DNA of 64,000 nt from Prochlorococcus marinus str. MIT 0919 (GTDB lineage Bacteria; Cyanobacteriota; Cyanobacteriia; PCC-6307; Cyanobiaceae): positions 1,178,001 to 1,242,000 of the forward strand of contig NZ_CP114779.1 of NCBI RefSeq assembly GCF_027359375.1, written 5' to 3'. Below, piece by piece: positions 4,230 through 9,312 of the stretch. Below the pieces are notes generated by a model. It saw nothing but the letters and a program-made list of their open reading frames with translations, was not told the DNA's origin and made no database searches. The position numbers and the translations under genes are program-made. The number at the start of each line of letters is the position of its first letter. Positions within the stretch are counted from its first letter, which is position 1.

Positions 4230-6080
4230 ATGACAAAAGAACTTACCGATTTCATAGAAGCAGAAGGCCTATTGGAATATGACCCAGAAACTATTGCGAA
4301 AATTTATCAAAAATATCCTTATAGATTTATAAAAAGACTGTGGGCAACCCTGATCCCTATCACACTCTTTCTTTTAGGGGTTGGCTGGGATAAATTACTA
4401 GGTTTGCTAAAGAACAAGGAAAAAGCTAGAGCAAGAGCTAAAGAGTTTGCGGATTTATTGGTGAGCCTAGGACCAGCTTTTATCAAGGCAGGTCAGGCTT
4501 TATCGACGAGGCCGGATATAGTACCCTCTATTGTGTTAGAAGAACTGGCACAACTACAAGACCAATTACCTGGTTTTGATCCAAAGTTGGCAATGGAATG
4601 TATAGAAGAAGACTTAAAAGTAAATAAAAAAGATATTTTTAAGAGCATTGAAATAGAGCCAGTTTCTGCAGCATCTTTAGGCCAAGTACATAAAGGGGTT
4701 TTAATAAATGGAGAAAAGGTTGCTGTTAAAGTACAAAGGCCTGGTTTAAGAGAACAAATAACATTAGATTTATATATTGTAAGAAATATAGCAAGATGGC
4801 TAAAAGCAAATATAAAAATAATTCGAAGTGACTTAATAGCCTTAATTGATGAATTAGGGAAAAGAGTATTCGAAGAAATGGATTATATAAATGAAGCAAA
4901 TAATGCAATAAAGTTTAAAGATTTACATATAAATAATAAAAATATTGCCGTCCCAAAAGTATACACTGAGCATACATCACGAAGAGTGTTAACAATGGAA
5001 TGGATAGAAGGAGTAAAATTGACAGATATAGAAAAAGTCAAACAATTAGGTATAAGTCCAGATGAAATGATTGAAATAGGAGTAAACTGTAGTCTTCAAC
5101 AACTTTTAGAACATGGTTTCTTTCATGCCGACCCACATCCAGGAAACTTGTTAGCTTTAGAAGATGGAAGGTTATGTTATTTAGATTTTGGAATGATGAG
5201 TGAAGTTAGCAGAGAATCAAGAACAGGATTAATACAAGCTGTCGTACATTTAGTAAACAGAAGTTTTGATAAACTTTCAAAAGATTTTGTTCAACTTGGT
5301 TTCTTATCTAAAGAAGTAAATTTAATGCCTATAGTTCCTGCTTTCGAAACAGTTTTTGGCACAGCGCTAGAATTAGGGGTAAGTAAGATGGACTTTAAAA
5401 GCGTTACAGATGATTTGTCAGGTGTAATGTACAAATTTCCTTTCAAATTACCGCCATACTATGCATTAATAATAAGATCCTTAATTACTCTAGAAGGAAT
5501 AGCACTAAGCGTAGACCCTGAATTCAAAATACTTGGTGCAGCGTATCCATACTTTGCTAAAAGATTAATGGAAGATCCTGACCCTCAACTCAGAAAAAGT
5601 CTTAAAGAAATGCTATTTGATGGTGAAACATTTAGATGGAATAGATTAAATGAACTGATGCTAAGCGCCGCCAAACAAACCGATATAGATATTGAAAACC
5701 TATTAGATAGAGTATTGGACTTTTTATTTTCTGCAAAAGGAGGCATACTTCGTAAAGAACTGGTAGAAGCAGTAGTGAGCAAATTTGATTCTTTTACATG
5801 GAAAACCATACAAAGCTTAAATAGTAAACTTCCTGAAAATATAAGATCTACTCAAATAAAGAGTAATGAAAGTTATTTAATGGTTGAAATAGAACCAATT
5901 AAAAAGATTATAAATATAGCAGAAAACCTACCAGGATTTAACAAAGAATTGATTATAAAAAAAATACCAAGAATATTAAAAGAAAAAGATACACGAAAAA
6001 TGGGTATTAAAATAGCAAAGGGAATTACAGAAAAAAGTATTGTTAGAATGATTAAGCTTGTTGCAGGAGTCAAACAATAA
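4230..6080 (+). CDS. ABC1/AarF/UbiB-family atypical kinase
   Basis: A 616-aa member of the ABC1 (UbiB/AarF) atypical protein-kinase-like family. In cyanobacteria and plastids such proteins are linked to prenylquinone metabolism and photo-oxidative stress; the substrate of this one is unknown. Visible motifs are the KAGQ motif of the family near residues 86-89, VAVKVQRPG (164-172, the nucleotide-binding lysine), the catalytic-loop-like HADPHPGNL near 299-307 and the DFG-like YLDFGMM near 317-323. A hydrophobic stretch near residues 36-55 may contact a membrane. The start ATG follows a purine-rich GAAGGGGGAA about 20 bp upstream. The next gene starts on the base after its stop codon, suggesting translational coupling. 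Confidence 0.93.
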   Translation: MTKELTDFIEAEGLLEYDPETIAKIYQKYPYRFIKRLWATLIPITLFLLGVGWDKLLGLLKNKEKARARAKEFADLLVSLGPAFIKAGQALSTRPDIVPSIVLEELAQLQDQLPGFDPKLAMECIEEDLKVNKKDIFKSIEIEPVSAASLGQVHKGVLINGEKVAVKVQRPGLREQITLDLYIVRNIARWLKANIKIIRSDLIALIDELGKRVFEEMDYINEANNAIKFKDLHINNKNIAVPKVYTEHTSRRVLTMEWIEGVKLTDIEKVKQLGISPDEMIEIGVNCSLQQLLEHGFFHADPHPGNLLALEDGRLCYLDFGMMSEVSRESRTGLIQAVVHLVNRSFDKLSKDFVQLGFLSKEVNLMPIVPAFETVFGTALELGVSKMDFKSVTDDLSGVMYKFPFKLPPYYALIIRSLITLEGIALSVDPEFKILGAAYPYFAKRLMEDPDPQLRKSLKEMLFDGETFRWNRLNELMLSAAKQTDIDIENLLDRVLDFLFSAKGGILRKELVEAVVSKFDSFTWKTIQSLNSKLPENIRSTQIKSNESYLMVEIEPIKKIINIAENLPGFNKELIIKKIPRILKEKDTRKMGIKIAKGITEKSIVRMIKLVAGVKQ

Positions 6081-6641: not shown

Positions 6642-6680
6642 GCTTAAAGGATTAAATTAATTAAAGACAAAATTTTGATT

Positions 6681-7787
6681 GTGACTTATTTAGAAAAAAT
6701 TCAAAGACATTTAGGCCTTAACCAGACATATAAACATTGGCCTGGATTGATAGAAGGGTACAAAAAATGGCTTCCAGTGTCAGATAAAACGCCTATCATT
6801 ACTCTACAAGAAGGTGCTACGCCATTAATCCCTTTAAAAGCGATAAACGAAGTAATTGGCAAAGGAGTAAAAATCTATGTGAAATATGACGGTTTAAATC
6901 CAACAGGGTCTTTTAAAGATAGAGGTATGACAATGGCAATAAGCAAGGCAAAAGAAAATAAATGTGAAGCTGTGATATGTGCAAGTACTGGAAATACATC
7001 TGCTTCTGCAGCTGCCTACGCTAAAAGAGGGGGATTAAAATGCTTTGTTCTTATTCCTGATGGTTATGTGGCTCAGGGAAAACTAGCACAGGCATTAGTT
7101 TATGGAGCCGAGGTATTAGCAATAAAAGGGAATTTTGATAAAGCATTAGATATAGTTCAAAATTTATCTGAAAAATATCCAATTACACTTGTTAACTCTG
7201 TTAATCCTTATAGGATTCAAGGACAAAAAACAGCTGCTTTTGAAATTATAGATGCTATGGGTGAAGCACCAGACTGGGTATGTATACCAATGGGAAATGC
7301 AGGAAATATCACTGCTTATTGGATGGGTTTTGAAGAATATTTTAAAGCAGGGATTAGTAAAAAATTACCAAGGATGATGGGGTTCCAAGCTAGTGGTTCA
7401 GCACCTTTAGTTTTAAATAAAAGAATTGAGAATCCAAATACAATTGCTACAGCTATAAGAATTGGAAACCCTGTAAATAGAGATAATGCATATATAGTAA
7501 AAGAAAAAAGTAATGGTAAGTTTACAGCTGTAACTGATGAAGAAATAATAAAAGCTTATAAATTAATAGCAAAAGAAGAAGGTATATTTTGTGAACCTGC
7601 TAGTGCGGCATCTATTGCAGGATTAATAAAAATAAAAGATGAGATTCCAAAAAATTCTAAAGTTGTTTGTGTTCTTACAGGAAATGGATTAAAAGATCCG
7701 GATACAGCAATTAATAATAATGATTCATCATTTAAATCAAATTTGAATCCCAACGTAGAAGACATAGCCAAAGCCATGGGTCTTTAA
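6681..7787 (+). CDS. thrC: Threonine synthase
   Basis: Catalyses the PLP-dependent conversion of O-phosphohomoserine to threonine. The PLP lysine lies in [10 protein letters not shown] (Lys about residue 79), the substrate loop is [13 protein letters not shown], and the PLP-phosphate glycine loop is PMGNAGNIT. The length of 368 aa fits the short bacterial/cyanobacterial type. Start codon: a GTG at 6681 is preferred; a TTG at 6675 would add two residues, and no ATG fits. It is the last gene before the gene-free origin region and is transcribed toward it. Codons are conspicuously A-rich compared with plus-strand genes to the right of the origin. Confidence 0.95.
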
Positions 7788-8154
7788 GCGCATAACCAAT
7801 TAAATTTCTGTCTGAGGAAAAGAAAGTAAAAATAGGCTTTGAATTGAGGAAAAGGATTCTGAAAACCAAAGAAAAGTAATTAGGTTTTTCAACAATGCAA
7901 GTATTTTTGTGGAAAGCTACTCAATATTCCACGAATTTCATATTCTTTACCACAGCAAATTTATTTTTAAATGCTTGCTATAAAAGGAGGATGAGACAAT
8001 TTCCACAGTAACCACAGGCTCTACTACTACTAATTCATATTCTTTTATTTAAAGAGATAGAAGAAAAACGATAATCAGTCGTTTGCTTCCATTTTTTGAA
8101 AAGATATGAAAAACTAGGATTCCATTTTTGACTTTCGTCGTTAAATTTAATTCG
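7788..8154. other. oriC: Probable chromosomal replication origin (oriC)
   Basis: A gene-free AT-rich stretch of about 367 bp directly upstream of dnaN. It holds five DnaA-box-like nonamers (compared with TTTTCCACA) within about 110 bp: 7909-7917 on the minus strand (CTTTCCACA, 8/9), 7925-7933 (TATTCCACG, 7/9), 7946-7954 (TTTACCACA, 8/9), 7999-8007 (ATTTCCACA, 8/9) and 8008-8016 (GTAACCACA, 6/9). AT-rich sequence around 7960-7985 could serve as an unwinding element. Coding-strand composition changes across this point, as expected where leading and lagging strands swap. dnaA is not adjacent, which is normal in cyanobacteria; dnaN marks the origin in this group. Promoters for dnaN must also lie here. 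Confidence 0.7.
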
Positions 8155-9312
8155 ATGAAACTCGTATGCTCCCAATCAGAACTCAATGGCGCTCTTCAGC
8201 TAGTTAGCAGGGCCGTAGCGTCTCGACCTACCCATCCTGTATTGGCAAATGTCTTACTTACTGCTGATGCCGGAACAGAACGTTTAAGTCTTACTGGATT
8301 TGATTTGAACTTTGGAATTCAAACTTCTATTCCTGCATCTGTTGAAATCAGTGGTGCTACTACCTTGCCTGCAAAACTTTTTGGGGAAATTATTTCAAAG
8401 CTTTCTTCCGATTCGCCTGTAAATTTGTCTAGTGATGAATCGGGTGAACAAGTTCAATTAGAAAGTAAAAGTGGTAGTTATCAAATGAGAGGGTTAAAGG
8501 CAGATGATTTTCCTGATTTACCTTTAGTACAAACAGGTACTTCTTTTAGTGTAAAACCTTATATATTTGCTAATGCATTAAAAAGTACTTTATTTGCAAG
8601 TAGTTCTGATGAATCAAAACAAATACTTACAGGTGTTCATTTGACTTTTATCGGTAGTTCTTTAAAGGCTGCTGCAACAGATGGACATAGATTAGTGGTT
8701 TTAAACTTAGATGATGCAATAGATTTAAATCTAGAAAATAACATAGAAAATACTGAGGAAATACAAGTTACTCTTCCTTCTAAGTCACTTCGTGAGATTG
8801 AACGTTTTATAGGAAGTTTAAAACCTGATGATAAAATTAATCTTTTTTATGATAGTGGTCAGGTAGTATTTATATCTCTTGATCAAGTTGTTACAACAAG
8901 AACTCTTGAAGGTGTTTATCCTAATTATAGTCAATTAATACCCCCTTCTTTCTCTAATATTTTAGAATTTGATAGAAAAACTTTTCTTTGTGCACTTGAC
9001 CGAATTGCTGTTCTTGCGGATCAACATAATAATGTAATAAAAATAACAAAAGATACTTCATCTGATGTTGTAAAAATTACTACTGATGCTCAGGATGTAG
9101 GAAGTGGTATGGAGTCTGTACCTGTAAAATTTAACGGGGAAAATTTTCAAATAGCATTTAATGTTAGATATTTATTAGAAGGCTTAAAAGTTTTTGAAGT
9201 TGATAAAATATTATTGCGTTGTAATTCACCAACAACTCCTGCTGTATTTTCTCCTGTTAATAATCAAGATAGTTTTATATACCTTGTAATGCCTGTACAA
9301 ATTCGTTCGTAA
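8155..9312 (+). CDS. dnaN: DNA polymerase III beta sliding clamp
   Basis: The ring-shaped processivity clamp that tethers DNA polymerase III to the template. The start is the ATG at 8155 giving MKLVCSQSELNGALQLVSRA, the classic clamp N-terminus; an in-frame TTG nine codons upstream is not needed. The product is 385 aa. Family landmarks are HPVLANVLL in domain 1, AATDGHRL in domain 2 and the C-terminal YLVMPVQIRS, which corresponds to the conserved M-P-x-R end that helps bind partner peptides. It is the first gene right of the putative origin and heads a rightward run with the PRC-barrel gene, purL and purF; the next frame begins 1 bp after its stop. Confidence 0.97.
   Translation: MKLVCSQSELNGALQLVSRAVASRPTHPVLANVLLTADAGTERLSLTGFDLNFGIQTSIPASVEISGATTLPAKLFGEIISKLSSDSPVNLSSDESGEQVQLESKSGSYQMRGLKADDFPDLPLVQTGTSFSVKPYIFANALKSTLFASSSDESKQILTGVHLTFIGSSLKAAATDGHRLVVLNLDDAIDLNLENNIENTEEIQVTLPSKSLREIERFIGSLKPDDKINLFYDSGQVVFISLDQVVTTRTLEGVYPNYSQLIPPSFSNILEFDRKTFLCALDRIAVLADQHNNVIKITKDTSSDVVKITTDAQDVGSGMESVPVKFNGENFQIAFNVRYLLEGLKVFEVDKILLRCNSPTTPAVFSPVNNQDSFIYLVMPVQIRS

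Follow-up and report, generated by a model that had tools for sequence, protein, structure and literature searches.

A DnaA-box and DnaA-trio module in the thrC–dnaN gap of Prochlorococcus marinus str. MIT 0919, a very probable oriC, and candidate C-centred trios in its relatives

Described systems and the position of the locus

The closest described system is the basal unwinding system (BUS) of the Bacillus subtilis oriC, which consists of DnaA-boxes 6/7 and an array of DnaA-trios, six of which are engaged in the B. subtilis structure (PMC10721633). The BUS rule requires a DnaA-box with no more than two mismatches, with up to four in the weaker box of a pair, and the commonest arrangement has the better box upstream, a box–trio distance of 13 bp, and GAT next to the boxes (PMC8287927). 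Synechococcus elongatus is a cyanobacterium too; its own DnaA opened its own BUS in vitro and needs both the boxes and the trios to do so (PMC8287927), and in this species oriC lies near dnaN and dnaA is essential (PMC7198777). For Prochlorococcus, G-C skew has already led to a published origin that carries DnaA boxes and lies between the threonine synthase gene and dnaN; neither DnaA-trios nor a BUS is mentioned in the passages of that work considered here (PMC2836286). The element described here occupies the same place and is an ordinary example of the known BUS module. The analysis gives this genome a very probable origin and locates, at single-base resolution, a candidate unwinding module in a phototroph that is very abundant in the ocean.

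The genome is a single contig of 1,716,770 bp (1.72 Mb), and the window, i.e., the whole stretch of DNA analyzed, covers its bases 1,178,001–1,242,000 (64,000 nucleotides); positions below are those of the window unless the contig is named. The left neighbor of the putative origin is thrC (threonine synthase; 6675–7787, plus strand), which was recognized from its translation and from PMC2836286 and adjoins dnaN in relatives. It is followed by a gap of 367 bp (7788–8154) and by dnaN (DNA polymerase III beta clamp; 8155–9312, plus strand), whose ATG start is backed by relatives and whose closest counterpart among named records is that of Prochlorococcus AG-402-G22, with 81% identity. The AT content of the gap (70%) exceeds that of the window (64%), which bears out the description of gene-free, AT-rich DNA directly before dnaN in an earlier, sequence-only reading of the locus. 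On its composition, boxes, and skew, the thrC–dnaN gap is very probably oriC. The dnaA gene starts at contig base 87, approximately 531 kb from dnaN, which sets this genome apart from B. subtilis.

A putative dnaN promoter, TTGCTT-16-TATGAA (8083–8110, plus strand), was read by eye from the alignment of relatives and is absent from the list of the consensus scan, which returned a single promoter-like site (8048–8075) in 7700–8250 against a mean of 2.0 in shuffled sequence. No terminator was found in 7700–8250, and Rfam gave no match in 7600–8400.

Skew and box density in the genome

Over 84 contiguous kb, the T-A disparity reaches its minimum at 8074, between the trios described below and dnaN, and the keto disparity at 8077, whereas the G-C disparity of the same 84 kb has its minimum at 4371, 3.6 kb upstream. 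The skew minimum expected at the gap is thus found for T-A but not for G-C. The best two-switch split of the T-A skew over the sampled stretches places one switch at the origin and the other near 320 kb, with arms of approximately 851 and 866 kb, so that the gap coincides with one switch of a pair separated by roughly half the chromosome. Since a stretch boundary at 8000 was preset by the analyst for this split, the fine position of the switch rests on the 84-kb minimum. The best split of the G-C skew has its far switch at 602–644 kb and its near switch after the 1158-kb stretch but before the window begins; it agrees roughly with the T-A skew near dnaN but disagrees at the far switch, for the placing of which G-C skew alone was not good enough. 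The regular T-A skew with its two switches also bears on the possibility that the gap is a relic and that replication proceeds from multiple origins without DnaA, a situation reported for Synechocystis PCC 6803. Such losses have recurred in cyanobacteria (PMC7198777); however, the skew, the intact dnaA gene, and the conservation of the block across Prochlorococcus make a relic very improbable here.

The density of DnaA boxes was compared across 41 stretches including the window (835,770 bases, 49% of the genome), which together contain 297 sites with at most one mismatch to TTTTCCACA; six of these lie within 7813–8007. Equally dense clusters elsewhere, which would have weakened the earlier reading, are absent from the sampled 49%, where the next best holds three sites in 205 bp, and a reversed-nonamer control attains a maximum of two per 205 bp. 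The Poisson probability of at least six sites in 195 bp is approximately 1.4e-10 per place. However, two of 40 shuffled nonamers reached at least five sites in 205 bp somewhere in the sample (seven and five), and clustering alone is therefore not unique evidence. Genome-wide, TTTTCCACA is not enriched; it occurs exactly 15 times against 21 for the reversed control, and with at most one mismatch 569 times against 760, so that boxes are rarer than the control.

As a separate observation, four good DnaA boxes, two exact and two with one mismatch, occur at contig positions 383384–383696, in and beside a gap between a recG-like and a dipeptidase-like gene (named by reading translations) and approximately 63 kb from the inferred terminus. 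With three boxes per 205 bp against six at dnaN and no box-and-trio match, this cluster was rejected as a second origin; it is possibly a DnaA titration or regulatory site.

Within the window, the gap before dnaN remains the strongest oriC candidate, as the sequence-only reading had proposed, since it adjoins dnaN and combines the T-A minimum with the densest sampled cluster, made up of TTTTCCACA-type boxes none of which is exact. The position of this cluster directly before dnaN, together with the putative promoter at 8083–8110, could instead speak for a DnaA-regulated dnaN operator, with replication starting elsewhere. Against this stand the skew switch in the gap, the trio array, the lack of a comparable cluster in the 49% of the genome sampled, and the published location of the origin between thrC and dnaN (PMC2836286), in view of which we consider an operator alone a most unlikely explanation. 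We hold it highly probable that the gap is a single, bidirectional, DnaA-dependent Prochlorococcus chromosome origin that opens by a trio-based mechanism; our confidence goes no higher because the statement covers the opening mechanism and because one DnaA residue, equivalent to B. subtilis Asn196, differs.

Boxes, trios, and DnaA contacts

Five box-like nonamers had been noted before dnaN and were recovered at 7908–7916 (minus strand), 7925–7933, 7946–7954, 7999–8007, and 8008–8016 (all plus strand); they span 109 bp, close to the earlier estimate of about 110 bp. Three of them, as claimed, differ from TTTTCCACA at one position, namely CTTTCCACA at 7908, TTTACCACA at 7946, whose column is strongly conserved among relatives, and ATTTCCACA at 7999. 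The weak box TATTCCACG at 7925 has two mismatches and the box at 8008 has three. Three further one-mismatch boxes extend the earlier list: TTTTCCTCA at 7813–7821 and again at 7845–7853 (both minus strand), the latter reading TTTTCCACA in many aligned relatives, and TTTTCAACA at 7886–7894 (plus strand). The whole cluster thus comprises six one-mismatch boxes in 195 bp (7813–8007) and two weaker ones, and exact TTTTCCACA is absent from the whole gap. The two boxes at 7813–7853 are inverted one-mismatch boxes 32 bp apart, and in the alignment many relatives share a conserved CTGTCTG-like motif next to them, at the gap's left end.

A check of positions confirmed that the boxes at 7999–8016 abut and share one orientation. 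This layout fits cooperative DnaA loading, although the distinguishing mark of the pair is the adjoining DnaA-trio array, which had been missed. Past a 4-bp spacer, GGCT (8017–8020), seen in the sequence and the alignment, lies CTACTACTACTA at 8021–8032, i.e., four DnaA-trios, 3'-GAT-5' on the minus strand. A possible fifth trio, 3'-TAA-5' (8033–8035, minus strand), follows where constraint fades in relatives, and the array thus exceeds the minimum of three 3'-NAN-5' trios set for a BUS. The stretch at 8033–8080 is 77% AT, holds the T-A minimum at 8074, and is the expected opening site. The upstream box ATTTCCACA has one mismatch to TTTTCCACA and two to TTATCCACA, while the downstream box GTAACCACA, recognized from the box scan and the alignment, has three and two, respectively, both within the BUS rule. 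The trios begin 13 bp from the upstream box and 4 bp from the downstream one, inside the 0–16 bp allowed; the gap therefore shows the better box upstream, 13 bp to the trios, and GAT beside the boxes. In this genome, a combined box-and-trio pattern is matched exactly at one place, in the gap, and nowhere with one mismatch; two-mismatch matches are at control level (25 against 26, the control being counted over all mismatch levels).

Like the B. subtilis BUS, the module consists of tandem boxes with the better match upstream, a short spacer, and a trio array on one strand. It differs in that its downstream box (GTAACCACA) is strongly degenerate and in that four clear trios are present instead of the six engaged in the B. 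subtilis structure (PMC10721633). The likeness to S. elongatus concerns the described features of its origin; the gap here lacks exact TTTTCCACA.

The dnaA gene is intact in this genome. Its product was aligned to PDB 8btg, taken as the B. subtilis protein because the residue numbers given in PMC10721633 fit, and seven of the eight positions checked are kept: Glu183, Asn187, Ile190, Ile193, Arg202, Glu228, and Arg264 of B. subtilis correspond to E199, N203, I206, I209, R218, E244, and R280. These seven are trio contacts or the arginine finger (PMC10721633, PMC8287927), so that DnaA carries the base-capture residues and arginine finger that belong to a BUS. The eighth position differs: in the B. 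subtilis structure, Asn196 makes contact with the third base of the trio (PMC10721633), and its equivalent here is Asp (D212). In 29 DnaA sequences, from this genome and from 28 hand-chosen genomes of 18 genera, the seven residues are unchanged throughout, and the equivalent of Asn196 is Asp in 28 sequences, the remaining one having Lys.

By analogy with B. subtilis and S. elongatus, DnaA would bind the scattered upstream boxes and the tandem boxes at 7999–8016. From this double-stranded anchor, the DnaA filament would extend rightwards over the 4-bp spacer and capture the minus-strand trio bases (3'-GAT-5' four times, 8021–8032), which may pry the helix apart and extend the opening into the AT-rich DNA ahead of dnaN, the expected place of helicase loading.

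Conservation and the middle base of the trios

The gap was aligned with 30 of the 45 relative loci from a dnaN search, giving 31 rows with its own. The loci left out were ten whole Synechococcus/Cyanobium-type loci (L048–L050, L052–L055, L057, L059, L064), L058 and L033 (cut at contig end), L035 (thrC outside the locus), L027 (thrC not found), and L062 (a gap of 1,462 bp). The block of two boxes, 4 bp, and CTACTACTACTA is ungapped in all 31 rows, and the middle base of the trio is identical in 31 of 31 rows for trios 1–3 and in 30 for trio 4; other trio changes are few and lie in outer positions. Anywhere in the genome, the box-and-trio pattern matches 134 of 392 family genomes and its reversed control 4 (manual count); for a slightly stricter pattern, the figures among class genomes are 64 and 3 of 116. 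A loose phylum-wide pattern matched 242 of 386 genomes but also gave many reversed-control matches, and was dropped as uninformative.

For the middle base, regions upstream of dnaN were collected from the window, 42 of the 45 loci (without L027, L033, and L058), and 80 further genomes, the last hand-chosen from at least 265 genomes with a dnaN match among the matches listed; they span 26 of 34 genera, and genomes with a contig start near dnaN were mostly avoided. In many single-contig genomes (G339, G340, G349, G350, and others), dnaN starts at contig base 174; the first base of the linear record therefore falls near the BUS and may separate it from the boxes upstream. Removal of three duplicates and of L170, which misfits the fixed spacer, from the 123 entries left 119 origins. 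Over trios 1–4 (476 cells, read on the trio strand), the middle position holds A 349 times, C 120 times, T five times, and G twice. As the first scoring favored plus-strand G at the middle and could thus favor C, it was repeated blind to that base; with L170 kept, the counts are A 350, C 120, T 7, and G 3 of 480, the same site was chosen in every genome common to both scorings, and four of 120 entries have tied sites. Trio five follows no such rule (A 88, T 14, G 9, C 8 in the 119 origins).

GC-rich relatives keep the block, with trios that read, e.g., CTACGACGACG. At least one C-centred trio is present in 73 of the 119 genomes, at least two in 40, and three in seven; G or T occupies a center in seven. 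The number of C-centred trios rises with the GC content of third codon positions in dnaN (Spearman 0.81, uncorrected for relatedness), and DoriC 10 describes boxes that drift in GC in GC-rich cyanobacteria (PMC6323995). One parsimony reconstruction on a dnaN protein tree (FastTree, midpoint root, 119 tips) gave 39 changes at the middle positions of trios 1–4, of which 34 are A-C, three C-T, one A-G, and one C-G. The A-C exchange, a transversion, hence makes up 34 of the 35 changes involving A, whereas at 34 four-fold dnaN columns A-C accounts for 14% and A-G for 39% of such changes; the binomial p of 2.6e-28 assumes independent changes and a fair baseline, which is only roughly true since the columns are saturated and coding. 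Third trio positions show mostly T-C changes (36 of 51).

When the middle base of the first B. subtilis trio was cytosine, opposite an abasic site, strands separated at a rate similar to that with adenine; in vivo, cells with cytosine substitutions grew faster and showed more initiation than those with guanine or thymine, which was attributed to the amino group with which Asn187 makes contact (PMC10721633). The series in picocyanobacteria resembles a natural instance of this A/C rule. We think it likely that picocyanobacteria shifted to C-centred trios as their genomes became GC-rich, and that selection holds the middle base at A or C. Both bases bear an exocyclic amino group, with which the conserved asparagine of DnaA makes contact. 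The rule in this one family, represented by 119 origins, would then read 3'-G-(A/C)-N-5' and not 3'-NAN-5', and software that requires adenine at the center of a trio would score these origins too low or overlook them. In their survey of the BUS, which detected no trio in 15% of origins, the authors suspected that some of these have trios with a base other than adenine at the center (PMC8287927), and they later showed that B. subtilis tolerates cytosine there (PMC10721633); no report of natural C-centred trios was found in the passages considered from part of the literature on DnaA-trios. A class-wide C-centred pattern matches 17 of 116 genomes, below the reversed control (about 47 of 116, manual count), and thus lends no support to such trios outside the family. 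They are a candidate variant in relatives and do not occur in this window.

It is also conceivable that the origin is real but that CTACTACTACTA is conserved for another reason, such as a factor reading the plus strand, and that the AT-rich stretch opens alone. The 77% AT of 8033–8080 would suit this, as would B. subtilis DnaD, which reads the strand opposite the trios (PMC13220808). Yet the fixed box–spacer–trio geometry, the A/C middle base, and the conserved DnaA contacts are what trio capture predicts, and S. elongatus DnaA requires boxes and trios alike (PMC8287927), so that we regard such a cause as improbable and prefer trio capture. The natural series from all-A to mostly-C trios, over which the checked DnaA contact residues stay constant, would make the recognition rule testable with matching protein and DNA.

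Some loci of the dnaN search are unusual in other respects. The thrC–dnaN gap of the Prochlorococcus locus L062 (QCFC01000013.1) measures 1,462 bp against 353–390 bp in the 30 aligned loci, and it carries the box–trio block. L027 and L029 (QCHR01000019.1) represent two copies of dnaN that face opposite ways on the same 19-kb contig from a single cell, perhaps an amplification chimera. L052 (CALPNT020000155.1) is titled as a Bifidobacterium breve MAG, yet has a dnaN and an upstream block of picocyanobacterial type, and is perhaps a mislabelled or mixed bin.
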